Assembly (NCBI GenBank): GCA_902803345.1
Contig: CADCPV010000178.1
Span: 1-8,395, forward strand
Direction: 5' to 3'
Length of the DNA: 8,395 nt
Origin: an uncultured Eubacteriales bacterium
GTDB taxonomy: Bacteria; Bacillota_A; Clostridia; Lachnospirales; Lachnospiraceae
Shown: positions 1-8,395 of the stretch, piece after piece
How the letters are laid out: each line of letters opens with the position of its first letter
Position numbering within the stretch: position 1 is the stretch's first letter
Position numbers and translations under genes: made by a program
The notes under the pieces: generated by a model
Seen by the model: only the letters and a program-made list of their open reading frames with translations
Database searches by the model: none
Told to the model about the DNA's origin: nothing

Positions 1-354
1 AGGCAGTTCATTGAAAAGCCAGTCGCCGTAAAGCAGGGTGTCAAAGGGGTTGCGGTACGTAAAGAGCGTATTGGGGACGCGGGTGCGAAAGACGCCGTTT
101 CCTTCCTCTGCCCAGTCGGTTACGATCTCGGCGCCGCTGATCACGGCTTCGCCGTCCCCTGCGGCTTCGTAGACGATGCGGTGATCTTCAGTCCCGCCGT
201 TTGCCGGGCTGACCCATTCGCGGTAGATGCCGGCGTGGATTCTGACGGTATCGCCGGGCAGCGCAATCGAGGCGGCTTTCTGGATGGAGCGGAAAGGCTT
301 GTCCTCGGTGCCGTTCCCGCGATCGCAGCCGTTTACACTGACGTGAAAGATCAT
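1..354 (-). CDS. N-terminal part of a beta-helix glycoside hydrolase, probable GH120 beta-xylosidase
   Basis: The reverse strand reads 118 codons from ATG at 354-352 and runs off the left edge, so only the N-terminus is present. It begins MIFHVSVNGCDRGNG and has the early features of right-handed parallel beta-helix enzymes: GDTVRIHAGIYREWV (residues 34-48), then VISGAE (71-76) and NPFDTLLYGDWL (102-113). The order YREWV, then I-x-G-x-E, then N-P-(x)n-GDWL is what I recall from GH120 beta-xylosidases such as the Thermoanaerobacterium XylC type, which release xylose from xylo-oligosaccharides. There is no signal peptide, consistent with cytoplasmic action on imported oligosaccharides. The start is fixed by GGAGG on the minus strand 8 nt upstream. 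The gene is transcribed away from the 525-2792 unit from its own promoter. The alternative is another pectate-lyase-fold or DUF1565-type protein; the catalytic residues lie outside the window. Confidence 0.8.
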   Translation of the reverse strand, partial: MIFHVSVNGCDRGNGTEDKPFRSIQKAASIALPGDTVRIHAGIYREWVSPANGGTEDHRIVYEAAGDGEAVISGAEIVTDWAEEGNGVFRTRVPNTLFTYRNPFDTLLYGDWLFNELP

Positions 355-390
355 GAATGATACCTCCTTCTGAGCTGGTGTTATTCTGTG

Positions 391-408
391 CTTTCATTAT
401 AGTGAAAG
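391..408. promoter_or_regulatory. Candidate operator: 18-bp near-palindrome over the -10 of the GH120-like gene
   Basis: CTTTCA (391-396) and TGAAAG (403-408) are perfect inverted arms around TTATAG, and TATA at the centre extends the symmetry with one mismatched pair. The element covers the minus-strand -10 (396-401), where a bound repressor would block the hydrolase promoter. That it is an operator is inference. No regulator gene is visible in the window. Confidence 0.4.
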
Positions 409-424
409 AGAATCGTTTTGTCTA
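396..424 (-). promoter_or_regulatory. Sigma-A-type promoter for the GH120-like gene
   Basis: On the minus strand, TAGACA (plus coordinates 419-424) is followed after exactly 17 bp by a perfect TATAAT (396-401). Transcription would start near 388-390 and give a leader of about 35 nt before the ATG at 354. The match is two substitutions from consensus at -35 and none at -10. Confidence 0.7.
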
Positions 425-451
425 TAGAAGAATAAAGATTGGGCAAGAGGA

Positions 452-480
452 TTGAACAGGCGGCAGTTCTGTGTTATGAT
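452..480 (+). promoter_or_regulatory. Sigma-A-type promoter for the ANT(6)-like / hydrolase unit
   Basis: TTGAAC (452-457) and TATGAT (475-480) are separated by 17 bp, close to consensus. The promoter points right, back to back with the minus-strand promoter at 396-424; the two -35 elements are 27 bp apart. The start of transcription would be near 487, leaving a short leader before the ATG at 525. Confidence 0.65.
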
Positions 481-496
481 CAGACAGGAGCGTCAT

Positions 497-535
497 ATGG
501 ACAGCAGTTTGAGGAAAGTGACTCATGAGAAATGA
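497..535 (+). CDS. Possible 12-codon leader ORF overlapping the ANT(6)-like start
   Basis: An ATG at 497 preceded by AGGAG (486-490, 6-nt gap) opens a 12-codon frame, MDSSLRKVTHEK, that stops with TGA at 533-535. It overlaps the first codons of the ANT(6)-like gene at 525 in another frame. Ribosomes ending here would be placed to re-initiate at 525, whose own ribosome site (GAGG at 511-514, 10-nt gap) is weaker. If transcription starts near 487 the leader's ribosome site would be cut or sit at the very 5' end of the mRNA, which weakens the case. It may be a chance ORF. Confidence 0.25.
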   Translation: MDSSLRKVTHEK

Positions 536-1394
536 AAAAGAAATAATCGATCAAGTATTGGATGCGGCGAACAGGGACGAGACGGTCAGAGCGGTGATCA
601 GGACCGATCTGCTCCCGAAAAGGGACTTTGCCTATTACAATTTCACCTTTATCGTAAGCGATCCGGAAAAGTATGACAGGGACGTTTTCGAAACCTGCTT
701 CGGCGACAGAATCCTGCTTTACAGAGGTGACCGGAATTATCCCGAACTGTTTCCGGATGGGGAAAAAGCGCATCTGATGGTGTTTCGGGATGGGACAACG
801 ATCGCCGTCCACATCATGGATCAGACCGCTTTTCTGGCAAGATATAACAGGGAAAAGAACTTTGAGAATGTCTGGTTTGGCGATACCTATATGAAAATCC
901 TGGACAAGGATCATGCGCTTCCTGAGATCGAACGCCTCGAAGAGAGGCAGATCTGGTTTGCGGAAACACCTTCCGAAGAACAGTTTACGGGAATATGCAG
1001 TGAATTCTGGTGGGTGCTGAAAACATTTGCCGAATATACCCTGAGAAAAGAGCTTCCGTCGGCCATGTTTTACCTGAATGTGGCTGTCCGGGACCTGCTG
1101 AACAAAATGATCAGGTGGTATCTGTTTTTGCGTGCAGGACAGCCGGTCAATATGGGCATTCTTGACTGCAACATGGAAAAACTGCTCCGGGAAGACCTGT
1201 TTTTGCTGTATAAGAAAACATATCCCTCTGCAGACTATGAAAAGATATGGGAAGCATACGACGCTGTTGTGAAACTGTGGACCATCATCGGAAATGACGT
1301 CGCAGCGCGCTGCGGATATTTATATCCGGCAGATACGGAGAAAGATATGCTGAGCCTGATCGGAAGCATGAAAGAATCTGTAAACACGCTGTAA
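525..1394 (+). CDS. ANT(6)/AadE-family protein with degenerate active site (pseudo-nucleotidyltransferase)
   Basis: The 289-residue product has the length and layout of aminoglycoside 6-adenylyltransferases, which move AMP from ATP to streptomycin. Resemblance begins at MRNEKEIIDQVL and continues through FIVSDPE (42-48), ELFPDGEK (74-81), ILDKDH (125-130), SEFWWV and YENIWEA-like DYEKIWEAYD near the C-terminus. The catalytic motifs are missing. The Gly-Ser motif region (EGSR in AadE) reads RTDL at about 26-29 with about 3 residues deleted; the DYD pair is YYN (37-39); and the third acidic residue (KIDLTLL in AadE) is alanine (TIAVHIM, A94). I infer that it cannot adenylylate a substrate. It may have kept a ligand-binding or regulatory role, or be drifting towards loss, although the frame is fully open. 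It precedes the serine hydrolase by 27 nt, so the two are probably co-transcribed. Confidence 0.8.
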   Translation: MRNEKEIIDQVLDAANRDETVRAVIRTDLLPKRDFAYYNFTFIVSDPEKYDRDVFETCFGDRILLYRGDRNYPELFPDGEKAHLMVFRDGTTIAVHIMDQTAFLARYNREKNFENVWFGDTYMKILDKDHALPEIERLEERQIWFAETPSEEQFTGICSEFWWVLKTFAEYTLRKELPSAMFYLNVAVRDLLNKMIRWYLFLRAGQPVNMGILDCNMEKLLREDLFLLYKKTYPSADYEKIWEAYDAVVKLWTIIGNDVAARCGYLYPADTEKDMLSLIGSMKESVNTL

Positions 1395-1421
1395 AACGGA
1401 CTGCAGAAGGTGGATATGATT

Positions 1422-2792
1422 ATGGATAAAAAGACTGTGATGGAAAAACTTGTCCGGGAAGCCCATGAAAAGGGACTCTTCAACGGTACCTGGCTCTATG
1501 CAGAGCACGGCGAAATCATTTCCAAAGGGGCTGTCGGCTTCCGCGACCCGGAAGACAAACTCCCCATGCGGGAGGACAGCATCTTCGACCTGGCCTCCGT
1601 CAGTAAGCAGTTTACTGCTGCGGCGATTATGCTGCTGGTCCGGAAGGGCCTTGTGGGGCTGGAGGACGAGATTACGAAGTATTTTCCCGAACTTCTTTAC
1701 CCGGGCGTCACAATCAGGCAGCTTCTGACCCATACCGGAGGCGTGCCCGATTATTTTGAGGACATCAGTTACATGGTTCGGATTTGGGAGGAGGAACACA
1801 GAATCCCGGACAACCATGACGTTGTTCGCTTCCTCTGTGAAAGTAAAATTGAGGCCTACTTCGCACCCGGGGAGGATTTTGAATATTCCAATTCCGACTA
1901 TTGCCTGCTCGCGCTGATCGTGGAGCAGGTCTCCGGGATTTCCTTTGAGGACTTTCTGCAAAAGAACATCTTCGAACCTGCCGGTATGAACGCCACCGCA
2001 GTCTGCCATGTCCGCAGGGACGGCTATCCGTCCGACAACTTCGTGCACGCTCTGGTGCTGGAGGATGGGCGGTACATTCTCCCGGATGTCTCCAAAAATG
2101 ATGATGATGTCGTTGCGGAAGATGGAACCAGCGGCGAAGGCGGCGTGTATTCCAATATCTTCGACCTTTTAGCCTGGGACCGGGCGCTTCGGGAAGGAAA
2201 ACTGCTCACACAGGAAGAACAGCAGCTCATGTATACGCCTGTCAGGCTGAATAACGGAGAGGTCTTTGTGGACGAGGAAGAAGGTGCGGGCTACGGCTTC
2301 GGCTGGTACGTCATCCATGATCCCGAATTTGGGCTGATCGTGGAGCATGGCGGCTGGCATAAGGGCTCCTACGCCCAGTATGAACGCTTCGTCGATGTGG
2401 ATGGACTGCTCATTATGCTTTACTGCCGCGATCCCGAAGATGCCCATGCGGGCCAGGTCTTTTACGAGGATATGCGCGGTATTGCAAGGGGCAGGGAACC
2501 CCAGCCTGTCCGTACCCTGGAGGAGCGTATGGAGAAAAAACCTGACAAATCCGCTTGGGAAAGCTTCTGCGGCAAGTATGCCCATGAAGAAGGTGATACC
2601 TTTTACCCGGATGAGGTCTACCTGCAGGATGGGGACCTGTACGTGAAGTGGATGCGCACCCACGGTGATGGCTTTCATTGGAAGCTCTACCCTTTGGGAG
2701 ACAATGAATTCGGCATCAAGAAGTTTGATTTCACCATCTGCTTCGATGAGGGTCAGCTGACCTGCTATGACGAGGTCTACAGGAAGCTGTAA
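1422..2792 (+). CDS. Serine hydrolase of the class C beta-lactamase / peptidase S12 fold
   Basis: The 456-residue product has the three motifs of penicillin-recognising serine hydrolases in order: SVSK (S59 nucleophile, K62), YSN (Y155, N157) and HGG (309-311) in place of the usual KTG. LLTHTGGVPDYF (101-112) and EPAGMNAT (185-192) are further family hallmarks. Residues about 375-456 form a separate beta-rich C-terminal domain like those on D-aminopeptidase and esterase-type members. There is no signal peptide, so it probably acts in the cytoplasm on an amide or ester such as a peptide, D-amino-acid compound or lactone. A true beta-lactamase, which works outside the membrane, is unlikely. Starts at GTG 1410 and ATG 1416 are also in frame; 1422 is chosen because AGGTG (1408-1412) lies 9 nt before it and only 3 nt before 1416. 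It follows the ANT(6)-like gene closely. Confidence 0.85.
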   Translation: MDKKTVMEKLVREAHEKGLFNGTWLYAEHGEIISKGAVGFRDPEDKLPMREDSIFDLASVSKQFTAAAIMLLVRKGLVGLEDEITKYFPELLYPGVTIRQLLTHTGGVPDYFEDISYMVRIWEEEHRIPDNHDVVRFLCESKIEAYFAPGEDFEYSNSDYCLLALIVEQVSGISFEDFLQKNIFEPAGMNATAVCHVRRDGYPSDNFVHALVLEDGRYILPDVSKNDDDVVAEDGTSGEGGVYSNIFDLLAWDRALREGKLLTQEEQQLMYTPVRLNNGEVFVDEEEGAGYGFGWYVIHDPEFGLIVEHGGWHKGSYAQYERFVDVDGLLIMLYCRDPEDAHAGQVFYEDMRGIARGREPQPVRTLEERMEKKPDKSAWESFCGKYAHEEGDTFYPDEVYLQDGDLYVKWMRTHGDGFHWKLYPLGDNEFGIKKFDFTICFDEGQLTCYDEVYRKL

Positions 2793-2830
2793 GCTGTCCG
2801 ATAAGCTTCGGTCAAATTTCTTGTTTCTCT

Positions 2831-2850
2831 GTTGGACATCAGTTGGACAT
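2831..2850 (+). repeat. Tandem GTTGGACAT direct repeat in the promoter of the cysteine-peptidase-like gene
   Basis: GTTGGACAT occurs at 2831-2839 and again at 2842-2850, one helical turn (11 bp) apart. A shorter GGACA copy lies at 2864-2868, 19 bp further. The first copy contains the proposed -35 hexamer. Direct repeats phased at one turn around a -35 are typical of binding sites for response regulators and similar activators. The role is inferred. Confidence 0.5.
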
Positions 2851-2860
2851 GGAGTACTAT
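2832..2860 (+). promoter_or_regulatory. Candidate promoter of the 860-residue cysteine-peptidase-like gene
   Basis: TTGGAC (2832-2837) and TACTAT (2855-2860) are 17 bp apart. An alternative -10, TATACT (2858-2863), would need a 20-bp spacer from the same -35. It lies in the 102-bp gap after the hydrolase, so the large gene is probably transcribed separately. The -10 is imperfect, which would fit an activated promoter using the overlapping direct repeat. Confidence 0.45.
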
Positions 2861-2881
2861 ACTGGACACAACATACATCAC

Positions 2882-2886
2882 GGAGG
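2882..2886 (+). promoter_or_regulatory. Ribosome binding site that fixes the start at 2895
   Basis: GGAGG lies 8 nt before the ATG at 2895. An upstream in-frame TTG at 2832 would extend the protein by 21 residues, but it lies inside the proposed -35 and has no ribosome site, so it is rejected. Confidence 0.8.
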
Positions 2887-2894
2887 TTATTTTC

Positions 2895-5477
2895 ATGCCG
2901 AATCCCAAAAAAACACAGCAGGCGGACCCATTTCCCTTTGCCTACCAGCGCGTCAGAGATCCTGAAAGCGGCGAGTACAGGACCGTCCGGCTTGTAAGTC
3001 CGCAGATTCCGGAATATATTCTGACAACCGGCGACACAGGAGCATTGGAGCGCTTCTATGCACAGAACAAGAAAACGCTCACGGAAGCCGACCATAAGTA
3101 TATGAAAGCGCGGCTGCATACCGCGTGGAAGGTTGACAATATCCGGAAAGAGAATCTGCTGAAAATCGGTCAGGGCACCATGCCCGCCGTACCGCAGCCT
3201 ACGACGAAAAAGGGGTTCACCGGTCTGGACCTGAAATATTCGGGACCGCAGACCTCCAACAACGGCTGCTGGTCCTGCGGACTGAGTCTTCTCTTAAAGT
3301 CCCGCGGCGTCGATCTGTCCCAGGAGGAAATCCGTGCATGGCGTCCGGCTTTTGAGCCCGGCCAGGAACAGCGCATGAGTCCGGGACGGCGTATGATGAT
3401 GGATATGGACAGCGTCAACAGCGTCTATGAGAATGCGGACCTTGTCCAGCAGGTGCTTCCGAACAGTGCCCTGACGACGGTTACGCTGAATGCGCTTCCG
3501 GACAATTTCCACATCCCGGGCACGGAGGAACTGAATCAGGAAATCCTGAATTTCATGACAGAGGAAGAACGGGCTCAGGCAATCCAGCAATATGAACAGC
3601 GAAACGGCGCGCTTCGGGAAAACGCCCGGAATGCCTTCAAAGCCGAGATGAAGCAGAAGATCGGAGAGCTCGTCCGTCAGGGACTGATCCGTGACAAATC
3701 TCCGATCGTTCTAAACCTTGGATCGAATCATTTCGTCACGATTACCGGGATTTCCAAACACGGAAACCGTCTCCGGATCGAGGATTCTCTGCGCTCAAAC
3801 GACAAAACCACACAGGAACTCTCCGTCGACGAACTGATTGATAAATACATGATCAGCAGGCCGTATAAAGAAGTCAACGGCATTACCATGACCTGGCTCA
3901 AGGACCTGCCCGCGCCGCAGTACGAACACCGGGAAACGCAGAAAACCCAGATATACGAAGACAATGTGAATGCATCTTCCTTATCATCGGACGGCAGCAT
4001 CAATCTGGTTGAGGTACCCGGAACCACGATCAGCGTTGGCAAAAACGGTGCGCCGAGTATCGGACAGCTCAAAGGCCAGGAACTGACGGACACCATAAAA
4101 ATCGACCAGACGGGCATCCAGCAGAAACTCGGCGGCCGGAAGATGTATGCCACAAACGCAGATCCCGAAATGTACGGCGAGAAGATGTACATCGGCTCTC
4201 AGCAGACTTATTATCCGAAAAAGATGTATTTTTTGGGTGATCCGAACCTGACAGAAGACCAGATCCTGCTGGATACGGCCAACACGGAGAAAAAGGAAGC
4301 GGAAATTGATGCGGCAATTCAGGGCCTTCCGCAGCAGAAAATCCGTCCGAATGAAGGGTCAATCGGCGCCTTTATTTATGACCAGAAGCAGGAACTTCTG
4401 CAGCAGAATCCGGATCCGGCTTATTTTATTGCCAATATCTATGCGGCCAATAAAGTGCTTGAGGGGAAGGAAGCACCGGAGGGCGTTGATAAAAAATCCC
4501 TTCCGCTGACACCCGAAGACAAGACCGCGATCCTCGAAGAAACTGCGCAGATCACTCCCCTTGTTAAGAGCATGCTCCCGCAGTCAGCCGGACAGGACAC
4601 CCTCGAAGTGCTTGCCTGTGCAGATGATCCGCAGAAATTAGTGCAGAAGATCGACTCCTTCCGGACCCGCCTGAAGAATGCCGCGAATTCAGACCTGAAC
4701 GAGCGGAAAGCCGTGATCGACGACGCCTTCCAGGCGATGCAGGATACCGCGACCGGCAGGAATTATTTCGGTGTCACAAGAAGCAGGAACAGGTCGGAAT
4801 ACACGGATATGATGGAAGAATTCGCGAAGTACAAGACCTCGCTTTCTCAGGGAGAACCGGACGGCGCCGCCGGCTTCAACGCGATCCAGAAGGGGCTGAA
4901 GTATATTTCAGACAAGAAAACCGTCCGTTCCACCGAAACCGGCGCAATCCGTTTCGACAATACGATGCGTATCCTGAAACAGCTGATGCCGGCTGCCGAG
5001 TTTACAAAGCTCTGCAACAGCATCAACCGCGCCAGGGGCGTAAACGGAATGCCGACTGACAAGAATTTCGTCTCACCCGAGACCTATGCACCGGCGACGA
5101 TGCAGAACTACGTGAGCAAAATGACGAGGAATCTCCCGAATGCCGGTTTCTCGGAGCAGCGCGACCGCTTCGCCATGATCCTGGCTGCCCGCGAGATCGC
5201 GAGACAGAAGAATCCGCGTCATCCGGAAAAAGCGATCATCGTCGGAATCGTCAATAAGAAGCAGGACGAACAGGCATTGAAGCAGCGCGCGAATGAGATC
5301 AAACGGGACCCGAATTTCCGTGCCGCCATGGATTCAATCCGAAGAGCTGAACCGGAAGATAAAGCAGGCCTTGTGCAGCTTTTTTCCGGCCGAAACGGCC
5401 AGAATTTGGAAGAAGAGGTTCAGACGCAGGCGCTTCTTCGGAATGCCGGAAATTCAGGACCGGGCGTCGGATTCTGA
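2895..5477 (+). CDS. Large papain/C39-like cysteine-peptidase-domain protein with long uncharacterised helical C-terminus
   Basis: The 860-residue product has a charged N-terminal region of about 100 residues, then a putative cysteine-peptidase core. SGPQTSNNGCWSCGLSLLL (116-134) gives Q119-x5-C125-W126, the same spacing as the oxyanion Gln, catalytic Cys and following Trp of papain and the Q-x5-C of C39 peptidases. SNHFVTITGI (277-286) supplies H279, and RIEDSL (294-299) supplies D297. A helical insert of about 150 residues separates Cys and His. From about 340 on I recognise no family. Residues 416-445 carry KMY three times, and about 590-860 look helical and charged; one stretch (YISDKKTVR 670-678, then RFDNTMRIL 686-694) resembles a unit I recall from large clostridial proteins. 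No signal peptide or membrane segment is visible, so it is either cytoplasmic or exported by a leaderless route. Possible roles are a protease, deamidase or transglutaminase-like effector or toxin; none is shown by the context. It has its own promoter and a hairpin follows it. Confidence 0.8.
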   Translation: MPNPKKTQQADPFPFAYQRVRDPESGEYRTVRLVSPQIPEYILTTGDTGALERFYAQNKKTLTEADHKYMKARLHTAWKVDNIRKENLLKIGQGTMPAVPQPTTKKGFTGLDLKYSGPQTSNNGCWSCGLSLLLKSRGVDLSQEEIRAWRPAFEPGQEQRMSPGRRMMMDMDSVNSVYENADLVQQVLPNSALTTVTLNALPDNFHIPGTEELNQEILNFMTEEERAQAIQQYEQRNGALRENARNAFKAEMKQKIGELVRQGLIRDKSPIVLNLGSNHFVTITGISKHGNRLRIEDSLRSNDKTTQELSVDELIDKYMISRPYKEVNGITMTWLKDLPAPQYEHRETQKTQIYEDNVNASSLSSDGSINLVEVPGTTISVGKNGAPSIGQLKGQELTDTIKIDQTGIQQKLGGRKMYATNADPEMYGEKMYIGSQQTYYPKKMYFLGDPNLTEDQILLDTANTEKKEAEIDAAIQGLPQQKIRPNEGSIGAFIYDQKQELLQQNPDPAYFIANIYAANKVLEGKEAPEGVDKKSLPLTPEDKTAILEETAQITPLVKSMLPQSAGQDTLEVLACADDPQKLVQKIDSFRTRLKNAANSDLNERKAVIDDAFQAMQDTATGRNYFGVTRSRNRSEYTDMMEEFAKYKTSLSQGEPDGAAGFNAIQKGLKYISDKKTVRSTETGAIRFDNTMRILKQLMPAAEFTKLCNSINRARGVNGMPTDKNFVSPETYAPATMQNYVSKMTRNLPNAGFSEQRDRFAMILAAREIARQKNPRHPEKAIIVGIVNKKQDEQALKQRANEIKRDPNFRAAMDSIRRAEPEDKAGLVQLFSGRNGQNLEEEVQTQALLRNAGNSGPGVGF
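4140..4228 (+). repeat. Three AAGATGTA repeats encoding spaced Lys-Met-Tyr motifs
   Basis: AAGATGTA occurs at 4140-4147, 4182-4189 and 4221-4228, in the same frame, 42 and 39 bases apart. Each encodes K-M-Y (residues 416-418, 430-432, 443-445), with a further M-Y at 426-427. The surroundings are Gly/Tyr/Asp-rich (YGEKMYIG, YPKKMYFLGDP). This looks like a short degenerate protein repeat linking the peptidase core to the helical C-terminus. A structural or binding role is a guess. Confidence 0.45.
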
Positions 5478-5486
5478 TCATGATAT

Positions 5487-5528
5487 AACAGGGACAGGCA
5501 GTGCCGCAGAGGATTGCCTGTCCCTGTT
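5487..5528 (+). terminator. Perfect 14-bp hairpin after the cysteine-peptidase-like gene
   Basis: AACAGGGACAGGCA (5487-5500) pairs without mismatch with TGCCTGTCCCTGTT (5515-5528) around a 14-nt loop, starting 10 nt after the stop codon at 5475-5477. The stem is strong, but no run of T follows it, only TT at the end of the arm. It may be a weakly U-dependent terminator or an RNA-stabilising or bidirectional element. Position strongly suggests transcript end formation. Confidence 0.65.
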
Positions 5529-5572
5529 CGTTCGGATAATCGTGTCATTAGAAACTTGAAAAGGAGGACAGC

Positions 5573-5998
5573 ATGCTGACAGTCAGGATTATCAGGGAAA
5601 ACGGCAAACATGCAAAGAGAGCAGAAATCGTTTCTCTTTACGCGAGTGATACAGACTTTGTCCCGTACTTAAGAGACAGGACGATTGACGGAGACGGGAC
5701 GATTCACCTGAAGGTTCCGGAAGGACCGGTCATCCAGCTCACAAAGTCTCTCGCGATCGAGTGGGCGAAACGGGGAGTCCGCGTAAACAGCATCAGCCCG
5801 GGCTATATCGGTACCGACCTGACGCTTTCCTCTCCGACACTCCAGCCATTGATTGCGCAGTGGAATGCGATGGCACCGACCGGACGGCTCGGAAGGCCGG
5901 AAGAGCTGGAATCGATCTGTGTGTATCTTGCCGGAGACACATCGACATTTACGACGGGAGCCGATTTCATTCTGGACGGCGCGTTTACCTGTTTCTGA
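5573..5998 (+). CDS. Chimeric ORF: foreign N-terminus fused to the C-terminal half of a short-chain dehydrogenase
   Basis: The 141-codon frame is open and has a good ribosome site (AAGGAGG 5561-5567, 5-nt gap), but it encodes two unrelated pieces. Residues 1 to about 52 (MLTVRIIRENGKHAKRAEIV, then YLRDRTIDGDGTIHLKVPEG) look like a small beta-sandwich of the kind that opens some polysaccharide hydrolases; the donor is not identified. From VIQLTKSLAIEWA (53-65) the sequence is classical SDR: RVNSISPGYIGTDL (70-83), GRLGRPEEL (104-112), then YLAGDTS and TGADFILDGAFTC at the end, close to NADP-mannitol/sorbose reductase-type enzymes. The N-terminal NAD(P)-binding Gly motif, the catalytic Ser and the YxxxK are absent; the residue where the Lys would be is Glu. 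A deletion therefore joined two genes in frame near 5722-5731. The product cannot be an SDR enzyme and the locus is probably a pseudogene remnant. No clear promoter is visible. Confidence 0.75.
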   Translation: MLTVRIIRENGKHAKRAEIVSLYASDTDFVPYLRDRTIDGDGTIHLKVPEGPVIQLTKSLAIEWAKRGVRVNSISPGYIGTDLTLSSPTLQPLIAQWNAMAPTGRLGRPEELESICVYLAGDTSTFTTGADFILDGAFTCF

Positions 5999-6128
5999 TC
6001 TGCAGGGACAAGACTTGCTGCGTGAGAATACAGCGATTCAAAAACGGTTCATCATACTGGAAAGATGCAACCACTGAACTGAGCTTGTTGTCTTTTAGAA
6101 CAGAGAAAAAACATTTCAGAGGTGTGTT

Positions 6129-7064
6129 ATGAAAAACAATTCAATAAAAGCAGTATGTCTTATCCTGATAACCGTTCTTCTCATGACATCGCTTACGGCA
6201 TGCATCAGACTGGGCAGTTTTTCACAGCCTTCTGTGGAACGCCGGACAGGCGGAGACTCCCGTGAATCAAAAGAATCCGGGAAGAGCAAAGAGTCCAAAA
6301 CCTCCACGGAATCCGATACCGGAACGGACACCGGAAAAACATCAGCCAATCCGCAGAAAGTCCGCTTTGTCAATTATGACAACGGCCTTTTCCGTGCGAA
6401 AATTCCGGAAGGATGGGAGGTGCGTGTTCTGGAAACGTCGGACTACATCCACTACACTTTCCAGATTTATGATCCCAAAAACCCGAAGCTGTGTGTATAC
6501 TTCAACATGAAAACAGAAGGATACATGAGTTCGGAAGAAGAATACAACTGGTATACCAGTATCTATCCCGACACGATTTTCACAGGGATTCCGTGGCTTG
6601 ACCCGGCTACAACGGAATATTTCTTCTCTGTTTTCAATCAGGCTATGGATGTAAACAACACAGAAAATTTCACTTTTCCGACACTTTCGGACCTGAAGAT
6701 GATTGAAAGCTTTGGGACGGATCAAATGGGTGCCGAAACGATCCGCGCGAAGGCTGTATCGGCTGACAGGACAAATGTGGAAGGCATTTTCTACTGCAGC
6801 ATCATGCCGTTCAATATGTACTATGTCACGTTCTATAATGTGTACAGCACAATGTTTGTGACAGCTCCTGAGGGAGAACTTGGAAACTGGATTGAAGTTC
6901 TCTCAAAAACGCTCGGCTCCATTGAATTCACGGATAAATTTACCAGTGAACTCAATAAGGAGCTTGCAGCGCAGGGCGAAGCGGCAAGAGAAATCGATCA
7001 GATCTGTTCGGACATGACGGAGATCATCAATCGCGCATGGGAGGAACGCACACGGGACTGGTAA
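6129..7064 (+). CDS. Surface lipoprotein with Ser/Glu/Thr-rich linker and a PsbP-like-looking domain
   Basis: The 311-residue product starts with a lipoprotein signal: MKNNSIK, a hydrophobic core (8-22) and lipobox LTAC with C25 as the lipidated cysteine, so it is anchored on the outer face of the membrane. A low-complexity linker rich in Ser, Glu, Lys and Thr (about 41-72) leads to a folded domain at about 78-270. The opening NGLFRAKIPEGWEVRV (85-100) resembles the first strands of PsbP/Mog1/LpqN-type domains, but this is only a fold guess. The last 40 residues are helical and charged. AGAGG (6118-6122) lies 6 nt before the ATG. From memory, clostridial relatives continue with another conserved segment after a similar tryptophan-containing helix, so the C-terminus at W311 may be shortened; this is unverified. 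No partner gene or function is evident. Confidence 0.75.
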   Translation: MKNNSIKAVCLILITVLLMTSLTACIRLGSFSQPSVERRTGGDSRESKESGKSKESKTSTESDTGTDTGKTSANPQKVRFVNYDNGLFRAKIPEGWEVRVLETSDYIHYTFQIYDPKNPKLCVYFNMKTEGYMSSEEEYNWYTSIYPDTIFTGIPWLDPATTEYFFSVFNQAMDVNNTENFTFPTLSDLKMIESFGTDQMGAETIRAKAVSADRTNVEGIFYCSIMPFNMYYVTFYNVYSTMFVTAPEGELGNWIEVLSKTLGSIEFTDKFTSELNKELAAQGEAAREIDQICSDMTEIINRAWEERTRDW

Positions 7065-7181
7065 GGATGGGCTGAAAAGGAGTCTCCCTTTCGTGGGTTA
7101 GGCGCAGACGCTTTATGCACTGTTGTATGAGCTTCTGGGAAACCGGGAAACCAATCATCATGGAAAAAGGAGTTATGCTGA

Positions 7182-7733
7182 ATGAAAACCGTTTACGATT
7201 TTACCGTGAAGGACAGACAAGGAAACGAGATCAGCTTGTCAGAGTACCGGGGAAAGGTACTCCTGATCGTCAACACCGCAACCGGCTGCGGCTTTACACC
7301 GCATTATGAGCCACTGGAAGCCATGTACAAGGAGTTCCGGGAGCAGGGCCTCGAGATTCTGGATTTTCCCTGCAACCAGTTCGCAAACCAGGCTCCCGGT
7401 ACCGAGGAGGAAATCCACGAATTCTGCACGCTGAAATTCGGGACAGAATTCCCGCAGTTCGCCAAGATCGATGTTAACGGCGACAACGCCGATCCGTTGT
7501 TTGCCTATCTGGCAGCGGAGAAACCTTTCGTTGGTTTCGGCAAGGGGCTGAAGAATGCGGCACTGAAGAAGTTTGCCGATATGAACAATAAGAAATACGG
7601 CGAGAAAACCTATATCGGGTGGAACTTCACCAAATTCCTGGTGAATCGGGAAGGCCAGGTCATCGCACGCTTTGAGCCTACGGAGGATATGGAAAAAGTC
7701 CGCACAGCAGTTGCGGCCGAATTAATGAAATAA
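7182..7733 (+). CDS. Glutathione peroxidase family protein (thiol peroxidase)
   Basis: The 183-residue product carries all the GPx signatures. NTATGCGFTPHYEPLE (31-46) has peroxidatic C36; FPCNQFANQAPGTEEEI (62-78) has Q70; WNFTKFLV (147-154) has W147 and N148, completing the Cys-Gln-Trp-Asn tetrad. It reduces hydrogen peroxide and organic hydroperoxides in the cytoplasm. Bacterial members usually draw electrons from thioredoxin, and C82 (FCTLKFG) is placed like the resolving cysteine of that type. It is longer than the common form of about 160 residues because of an insert between FAYLAAEKP and IGWNF (about 115-145), a variant found in clostridial anaerobes as I recall. AAAGGAG (7167-7172) lies 9 nt before the ATG. 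No own promoter or peroxide-regulator box was found; 33 nt separate it from the cation-transporter relic that follows. Confidence 0.95.
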   Translation: MKTVYDFTVKDRQGNEISLSEYRGKVLLIVNTATGCGFTPHYEPLEAMYKEFREQGLEILDFPCNQFANQAPGTEEEIHEFCTLKFGTEFPQFAKIDVNGDNADPLFAYLAAEKPFVGFGKGLKNAALKKFADMNNKKYGEKTYIGWNFTKFLVNREGQVIARFEPTEDMEKVRTAVAAELMK

Positions 7734-7766
7734 TGTTATGAAATACGGAGAAGGGGAATCTGAAAT

Positions 7767-8395
7767 ATGAGCACGCAGACAAACCGTGACAGGGGACACT
7801 CCGGATTACAGTGTCATCGCACTGGTGATCGTCGCCGTCGCTGTCGTGGTGAAGATCGTTCTGGGCTGGTATGTCAGGCATACCGGTGAAAAAGTGAATT
7901 CGGATTCACTGATTAATTCCGGCAAAGACGCAACACTGGATTCCGTGATCTCAGCGGCGCCTATGATCTGGTCCTGCATAATTACGGCCCGGATTCCTAC
8001 AACGGCTCTGTTCATATCGAGGTCCCGGACACCCTGTCTGCTGATGACCTGGACAAACTTATCAGAAAGGTCACCGTCGATGTGTATCAGAAGCATGATG
8101 TGATCCTTACGGCCATCGGTGTCTATTCGATCAACACCAGGGATCCGGAGGCGGCGGCTGCCAAAGAACACGTAACAAAGCTCGTGATGGCGATTCCCTA
8201 CGTCCTTCAGATACATGCATTCTATCTGGATCAGAAAGAAATGACCCTGCGGTTTGACATTATTGTCAGTTTTGACGCCAAGGACCGCAGACAGGTCTAC
8301 CGCGAAGTCTGCGAAGCAGTCCAACGGGAATACCCGGACTATACACTGCAGATCGTGATGGATACGGACTTCAGTGAGGAAAGCGAAACGGGAAA
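7767..8395 (+). pseudogene. Cation diffusion facilitator (CDF) transporter relic with two internal deletions, cut by the right edge
   Basis: Three pieces of one CDF (zinc/iron/manganese-proton antiporter) gene lie in order but in different frames. A start with ribosome site (GAGAAGGGG 7748-7756, ATG 7767) reads MSTQTNR. The frame then shifts by +1, and from about 7794 it reads DTPDYSVIALVIVAVAVVV, the membrane helix before the second metal site, then GEKVNSDSLINSGKDATLDS, whose DATLD is the DxxxD metal motif. Near 7951-7957 it jumps back to the first frame and reads SGAYDLVLHNYGPDSYNG, HIEVPDTLSADD, VILTAIGVYSINTRDPE and FDIIVSFDAKDRRQVY, the cytoplasmic C-terminal domain. Helices 1-3 and 5-6 are missing. 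Read from 7767, translation stops at TGA 7887-7889, and TAA 7914-7916 follows. It cannot make a transporter. The true end lies beyond the window. Confidence 0.85.

Follow-up and report, generated by a model that had tools for sequence, protein, structure and literature searches.

Effector-delivering type IV secretion systems (T4SSs) of Gram-negative bacteria, among them Dot/Icm, VirB/D4 and the Bartonella Bep system, have many co-regulated, leaderless multi-domain proteins with shared C-terminal elements. Protein export by a Gram-positive T4SS has long been suspected and is barely shown. According to PMC6540685, the Gram-positive T4SSs characterised in some detail are all conjugative, and the T4SS of the 89K island of Streptococcus suis is reported to export SspA-1 (PMC12857230). 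The subject here is an 860-residue protein encoded on an 8,395-nucleotide stretch of DNA from an uncultured Eubacteriales bacterium of the Lachnospiraceae (contig CADCPV010000178.1, positions 1 to 8,395; hereafter the window). From sequence comparisons, we consider it probable that rumen and gut Lachnospiraceae and related Clostridia have a dedicated T4SS without a relaxase and that this protein is one of its effectors, a cysteine protease. The proposal is founded on a predicted fold, a conserved catalytic set, a shared promoter box, co-occurrence with a T4SS, the lack of a signal peptide by hydropathy and the lack of a nearby relaxase of two families. A title-level literature search, largely outside subscription papers and wholly outside bioRxiv, found no T4SS effector system in Lachnospiraceae, and an earlier description is possible.

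The system proposed here resembles the Gram-negative effector T4SSs in combining VirB4, VirD4, VirB6-like and VirB2-like genes with a co-regulated leaderless repertoire, and differs from them in its Gram-positive-type machine (a PrgI-like/VirB4 fusion and a weakly TrbL-like protein), its commensal clostridial hosts and its 11-bp-repeat promoter. The 89K T4SS is likewise a Gram-positive machine, with protein export reported for it; however, it belongs to a pathogenicity island and has one reported exported protease, whereas the present T4SS has a large leaderless repertoire and no relaxase found beside it. The gene and the parts of its product are as follows.

2895..5477, + strand: coding sequence, 860 aa, papain-like putative T4SS effector (P0001), from translation of the open reading frame (ORF) and homologue searches
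3000..3947, + strand: conserved N-terminal module, residues 36-351 (alignment A2), from alignment and structure prediction
3201..3920, + strand: predicted papain/C39-like catalytic core, residues 103-342, from the predicted structure and its structural neighbours
3249..3251, + strand: codon of Q119, putative oxyanion-hole Gln, from alignment
3267..3269, + strand: codon of C125, putative nucleophile, from alignment
3729..3731, + strand: codon of H279, putative catalytic His, from alignment
3783..3785, + strand: codon of D297, third residue, D/N/E in relatives, from alignment
4392..5444, + strand: mostly helical C-terminal domain, residues ~500-850, common to proteins without the papain module, from profile searches and structure prediction

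The ORF contains no internal stop and translates into 860 residues. Protein searches, which covered 5.8 billion proteins with scoring limited to the ~8000 candidates sharing the most words, gave 18 and later 29 clusters at E ≤ 0.001, one of them the window's own protein (P0002); all named homologue clusters are 'hypothetical protein' at best. Eleven other clusters (P0003-P0013) show 37-54% identity to the window protein across 82-100% of its length; the ORF is therefore not a chance one, and the uncharacterised protein set out in a preliminary description of the window proved real. Residues ~103-342 are predicted, with a confidence close to certainty, to adopt a papain/C39-like fold. The model has a mean predicted local distance difference test score (pLDDT) of 85.9 for the whole protein, and a pLDDT of 92.5 with a predicted template modelling score (pTM) of 0.89 for residues 36-351. 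Together with the conserved catalytic set, this confident prediction bears out the core that had been suspected.

Across 45 aligned papain modules, window included, the Q119 column holds Gln in 43 (two masked), the C125 column Cys in 44 (one masked) and the W126 column Trp in 42 and Tyr in two (one masked), while the third-residue column at D297 holds Asp in 33, Asn in ten and Glu in two. His occupies the H279 column in 45/45, an invariance that is partly selection because the His forms part of one of the two patterns by which the loci were collected. Among the 18 proteins found by word search (alignment A1), H279 is again invariant and Q119, C125 and D297 are conserved at ≥90%. The candidate set Q119, C125-W126, H279 and D297 was correctly placed. 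The predicted fold and the conserved Gln-Cys-His-Asp/Asn order, with Gln upstream, are those of clan CA papain-like and C39-like cysteine peptidases; the window protein is set apart from them by a ~44-residue helix between Cys and His (H188-231 in the model) and by a fused helical half of its own. It reaches no Pfam or NCBIfam family and matches no peptidase family by sequence: PF13529 (Peptidase_C39_2) gives no match up to E 10, its curated score not being attained, and is touched by 21 of the 45 modules at E ≤ 0.05 (best 6.5e-5). C39-like structures (6mpz and 3erv) are among the best structural matches, beside C78 UfSP/ZUFSP, phytochelatin synthase and C70 AvrRpt2, as would suit a C39-type processing peptidase maturing a surface or secreted peptide. 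That role is highly improbable, as the protein has no ABC transporter domain, the window holds no exporter or double-glycine substrate gene, and the long C-terminus would go unexplained.

Scanning GTDB species, each represented by a single genome, yielded 48 loci. Their titles name Lachnospiraceae, Lachnoclostridium, Butyrivibrio, Oribacterium, Eubacterium, Ruminococcus, Oscillospiraceae and Clostridiaceae, the remainder being unnamed Clostridia, Clostridiales or Bacillota; rumen or omasum is named in eight of the 48. The record titles of AC2029, LC2019, NE2001 and NC2004 carry no mark of a metagenome-assembled genome, and two scans of viral sequences found no relatives. Proteins of the papain-module family are about 590-3700 aa long, with one of 286 aa, and their distribution is patchy.

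The window gene is solitary and has its own promoter, which comprises two elements.

2832..2849, + strand: regulon box, two direct repeats TTGGACA with an 11-bp period (TTGGACATCAGTTGGACA), from pattern search and recurrence in relatives; on its sequence, probably an activator site overlapping the -35 region
2858..2863, + strand: -10 hexamer TATACT, 8 nt past the box, read from the sequence, at an offset shared by relatives' sites

The whole promoter (2832-2863) reads TTGGACAtcaGTTGGACA-8 nt-TATACT, a tandem 11-bp repeat with a -10, and the window contains one box match, an exact one, against 0.02 expected. In four related genomes (G002, G003, G004 and G016; G, C and L denote genomes, contigs and loci), TTGGACANNNGTTGGACA has 18, 8, 14 and 12 exact copies, respectively, and 26, 15, 22 and 29 at ≤2 mismatches against 3, 7, 1 and 3 for the reversed control; the impression of a regulated promoter was well founded. 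A -10-like hexamer stands at the window offset in 58 of 68 box sites examined. Downstream of the 68 lie window homologues, C-terminal paralogues and other large proteins: 40 complete ORFs of ≥350 aa, which fall into 15 sequence clusters and lack a membrane segment in 38 cases, whereas the other 28 sites precede short ORFs, ORFs cut by a contig end, or none by the ORF rule. The box lies 5' of T4SS operons in G002, G003 and G004, and inside T4SS loci about 8 kb (G020) and about 7 kb (G231) upstream of VirB4. A broader pattern, GTTGnRC-4-GTTG plus a -10, is present in five of 13 T4SS loci scanned (G005, G006, G010, G014, G231) and gave seven sites in ten newly added T4SS loci, where 20 base shuffles gave 0.1; when all its forms are counted, nine of the 16 T4SS loci examined have a box. 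In other genera, large genes have this layout with GTTGCrC as the repeat: it was found in 21 of the 48 regions examined upstream of such genes (from G006, G008, G010 and other loci) and in none of the shuffles. Across 397 genomes of one family, six carry at least two TTGGACA-type boxes (G004, G003, G372, G231, G020, G176), and five of these six have the long VirB4 considered below. Direct 11-bp repeats ending shortly 5' of a -10 are the layout of PhoB/OmpR-type activators, which fits the weak Trans_reg_C match of the regulator beside the T4SS. One box type thus stands at the window gene and at relatives' T4SS loci, and on this basis the gene very likely belongs to a promoter-defined regulon that includes the T4SS.

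At L028, L033, L043 and L044, type IV secretion genes lie within a few kb 3' of the papain-module gene, with a histidine kinase in between at the first three. Pfam scans of genes from L044, L033 and AC2029 (L070) identified a pilin (PF18895, E 6e-13), VirD4 (PF02534, with E 2.5e-54 for the AC2029 copy), VirB4 (PF19044, E 1.5e-15) with an N-terminus PrgI-like by eye, and a weakly TrbL-like protein (E 0.002-0.003, under the cut-off), together with response regulator, histidine kinase, SpoIIE, STAS and HATPase_c_2 domains. The order on contig C6 of G004 is given below, the names VirB6, STAS, anti-sigma and SpoIIE reflecting position and by-eye likeness to the scanned AC2029/L044 genes.

G004:C6 (a): window homologue at 6.8-9.5 kb, - strand; HAD-domain protein, histidine kinase, response regulator; two boxes
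G004:C6 (b), next: pilin (PF18895, E 2.6e-14); a pair of proteins, each with a signal-like start; VirB6-like protein without a Pfam match
G004:C6 (c), next: VirB4 (PF19044, E 1.2e-18); 1943-aa protein; VirD4; STAS-, anti-sigma- and SpoIIE-like genes
G004:C6 (d), last: another box; 1382-aa protein with the C-terminal domain

The response regulator of this locus matches Trans_reg_C at E 3.6e-5 (24.2 bits, short of the 26.2-bit cut-off). The 1950-aa operon protein encoded at L070:3955-9804 (-), next to the T4SS of AC2029, begins with a signal-like stretch, carries a PLAT domain (E 1.4e-6) and a weak CBM56 domain, and could be an adhesin; proteins of like size come after VirB4 in G004 and G003.

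An orthologue of the AC2029 VirB4 (50-83% identity in the best segment) is present in 16 of 18 family-bearing genomes, and one of its VirD4 (65-91% identity) in 15 of these 16, G016 being the exception; other copies in T4SS genomes reach at most 96 bits for VirD4 and 67 bits for VirB4. The papain-module gene lies no more than about 15 kb from the T4SS in six of the 16 (G001, G004, G008, G012, G013, G014). Among the 397 genomes, the long VirB4 occurs at ≥1250 bits in 13 and a related VirB4 at 913-975 bits in eight, with the rest at ≤213, and the papain module occurs at E ≤ 1e-5 in 16. All eight strong papain-module genomes (E ≤ 1e-60) carry the long VirB4; the hypergeometric p for the co-occurrence of module and long VirB4 is 9e-14 (3e-12 without the centre genome), kinship uncorrected. 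G346, with a weak papain module, has VirD4 at 80% identity and an N-terminal piece of VirB4. Because this T4SS is encoded elsewhere in relatives' genomes and is tied to the gene by the shared box, it could not be seen from the window; the earlier statement that the gene has no processing partner is right for the window itself but misleading for the wider system. That description had offered a leaderless effector, a toxin or an intracellular protease, and the evidence favours the first over the other two.

The absence of a signal peptide, also noted earlier, was borne out by hydropathy (maximum 19-residue Kyte-Doolittle mean 0.41 within residues 1-60), which likewise reveals no membrane segment (maximum 0.88 overall). 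An intracellular housekeeping or stress protease, unsecreted and merely sharing the regulator, would also lack a signal peptide, and partner-switch-type genes (SpoIIE, STAS, HATPase_c_2) in the T4SS region and a few metabolic genes behind boxes would suit it. Such a protease is nevertheless quite unlikely, given that the T4SS itself lies behind the same box and that the family is patchy, length-variable and expanded (up to 19 model matches per genome), unlike a housekeeping enzyme.

A conjugation machine, with its relaxase encoded elsewhere and the large proteins either accessory or cytoplasmic and made in the same state, would account for the VirD4 coupling protein, and according to PMC12857230 the known functions of Gram-positive T4SSs are nearly all DNA transfer. 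Relaxases were sought as PF03432 and PF03389 in the 16 T4SS genomes, many of them fragmented. PF03432 is found somewhere in nine and is missing from seven, PF03389 is found in four and missing from 12, and neither lies close to the T4SS in any of the 16. G001 (relaxase at 621 kb, T4SS at 990-1000 kb) and G011 (24 kb and 90-98 kb) are the sole genomes in which a relaxase shares a contig with the T4SS, the nearest being 370 and 66 kb away, respectively; for relaxases on other contigs distance is unproven because of the fragmentation. As a positive control, PF03432 was found at a distance of 7-9 kb from ordinary VirB4 copies in G001 (VirB4/relaxase at 503/512 kb and 2283/2274 kb), G006 (C43, 232/223 kb) and G007 (C7, 105/114 kb and 143/150 kb). 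These VirB4/VirD4 copies, of the integrative and conjugative element type, are the same ATPases at 23-30% identity to the present T4SS over most of the match. A scan of part of the G004:C6 locus, pilin included, found no relaxase domain, and we know of no conjugation system with a regulon of many unrelated large proteins. A conjugative role is accordingly judged unlikely.

On profile evidence, the C-terminal half is a family of its own, recurring in large proteins without a papain domain. It had been described as matching no familiar family, which holds for Pfam (best PF01374, E 0.016, under its cut-off) but overlooks the family that it constitutes itself. In the 18 family-bearing genomes, picked because the family is present, a whole-family profile gave 1-19 matches per genome, many of them to the C-terminal part alone and mostly in open frames of ~300-1800 codons. 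Piecewise hidden Markov models added genes in L079, L080, L083, L085 and L088 that match the C-terminal model alone; the proposed search for paralogues sharing the C-terminus thus found them, with the papain module missing. On contig C43 of Lachnospiraceae LC2019 (G006), such large genes follow in succession from about 9 to 130 kb, mostly on the same strand.

Of the 40 box-controlled proteins, 19 were scanned against Pfam at E ≤ 0.01: 14 gave no match, L109 (a histidine phosphatase) and L115 (a mannonate dehydratase) are ordinary enzymes, and three (L118, L125, L141) gave a PI3/PI4-kinase-like match, L125 at the curated cut-off of 27.1 bits. Weak PI3/PI4-kinase- and Fam20C-like matches, at L118:157-2523 (+), L125:115-2403 (+), L141:129-2408 (+) and L075:17231-19705 (+), come from box-controlled proteins of G003 and G004 and a gene of the LC2019 cluster. 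These matches possibly mark an effector kinase family; a family common to the sets of distant genomes would resemble an effector repertoire. In the LC2019 giant-gene cluster, L073:2905-5088 (-), behind a GTTGCGA-type box, has an ADP-ribosylglycohydrolase domain (PF03747, E 2.8e-37) and is thereby a candidate effector whose enzyme fold is known. The 2495-aa protein at L048:8933-16417 (+) has a distant papain-like part and, near its C-terminus, what we take by eye to be a UbiB/ABC1-type kinase motif. An MP start is seen in 25 of 40 box-controlled ORFs and in 6 of 90 controls; Pro occurs within positions -8 to -2 in 28 and 23 of them, respectively.

The structural neighbours of the papain core include papain-like toxin domains from systems of contact-dependent inhibition, as well as a toxin/immunity pair (8ssk, 8ssm, 9l5u), which would agree with an antibacterial effector delivered into competing bacteria. 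By the rule used, however, 19 of the 40 box-controlled ORFs have a downstream ORF (32 having ≥500 nt of downstream sequence), and no two of the 19 are alike. No recurrent immunity-like partner was found among these, which disfavours a toxin with an immunity partner, and the window gene stands alone behind its promoter. An antibacterial effector is thus also rather unlikely.

Several observations weigh against the proposed T4SS effector. The link rests on relatives' genomes, the source genome lying outside the comparison, and PDB sequence searches found no relative. G009 and G018 have the family without an AC2029-type VirB4 orthologue, and no box was found by the patterns used in the stretches read of seven of 16 T4SS loci (G001, G008, G011, G012, G013, G015, G017). 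Seven of eight weak papain-module genomes have neither the long VirB4 nor the specific VirD4, which disfavours a universal papain-T4SS link, and in five of the 13 genomes with the long VirB4 no papain module reaches E ≤ 1e-5. G372 (C4 and C9) carries seven exact copies of the TTGGACA box and giant proteins with a distant papain module, and no matching VirB4/VirD4 was found in it; it may be an incomplete genome or a regulon that survived loss of its T4SS. Boxes also precede ordinary genes, namely the L109 phosphatase, which has a membrane segment, the L115 dehydratase and, by eye, the L159 membrane protein and L166 ABC ATPase. The tails of box-controlled proteins are biased towards Pro, Asn and Glu, as a translocation signal a bias of composition only. 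Finally, a relaxase of another family, or one acting from elsewhere, may exist.

The remaining features adjoin the window gene.

2882..2886, + strand: ribosome-binding site GGAGG, read from the sequence
5488..5527, + strand: 13-bp inverted repeat directly 3' of the stop codon with a weak T run, possible terminator, by eye

The possible terminator just past the stop makes the gene look monocistronic. Its neighbours are ordinary by Pfam scan: an adenylyltransferase-like gene, a beta-lactamase-fold hydrolase, a short-chain dehydrogenase remnant, a gene without a Pfam match, a glutathione peroxidase and a cation-efflux gene. None of the genes directly beside the window gene encodes an exporter or a bacteriocin or is immunity-like. 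The remnant (5573-5998, +) is probably a broken gene, as PF13561 is matched at its C-terminal positions 150-235 only. The cation-efflux gene apparently spans two frames (7786-8103 and 8082-8393, +), possibly through a frameshift or assembly error.

Regulator binding to the box, translocation, enzyme activity and the target are what we infer from this evidence. In the proposed mechanism, the histidine kinase/response regulator pair beside the T4SS would activate promoters with the tandem 11-bp repeat, so that the secretion machine and up to about 20 large leaderless proteins (in the genomes counted) would be made together. VirD4 would recruit these proteins through C-terminal features, the shared helical domain and/or the Pro- and Asn/Glu-rich tail, and they would leave the cell through the T4SS, by export or injection. 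After delivery, a target protein would be cleaved, or modified in another way, by the papain-like domain (Cys125-His279-Asp297, with Gln119). Our guess is that a rumen microbial eukaryote is a likelier target than bacteria, because no immunity gene accompanies the box-controlled genes and because titles name the rumen. More tentatively, commensal rumen Clostridia might use a dedicated effector-injecting T4SS against or with rumen eukaryotes such as ciliates and fungi, its effectors numbering in the tens and papain-like proteases as well as PI3/PI4-kinase-like proteins being among them.

A lone orphan is hereby recast as a putative member of a promoter-defined regulon with a Gram-positive T4SS that has no relaxase nearby, and with the promoter signature candidate effectors can be picked out one gene at a time in relatives' genomes. 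If the proposal is true, this would be the first Gram-positive effector T4SS with a large repertoire, the window protein being one of its proteases, and it would represent a new route by which rumen bacteria act on their neighbours.
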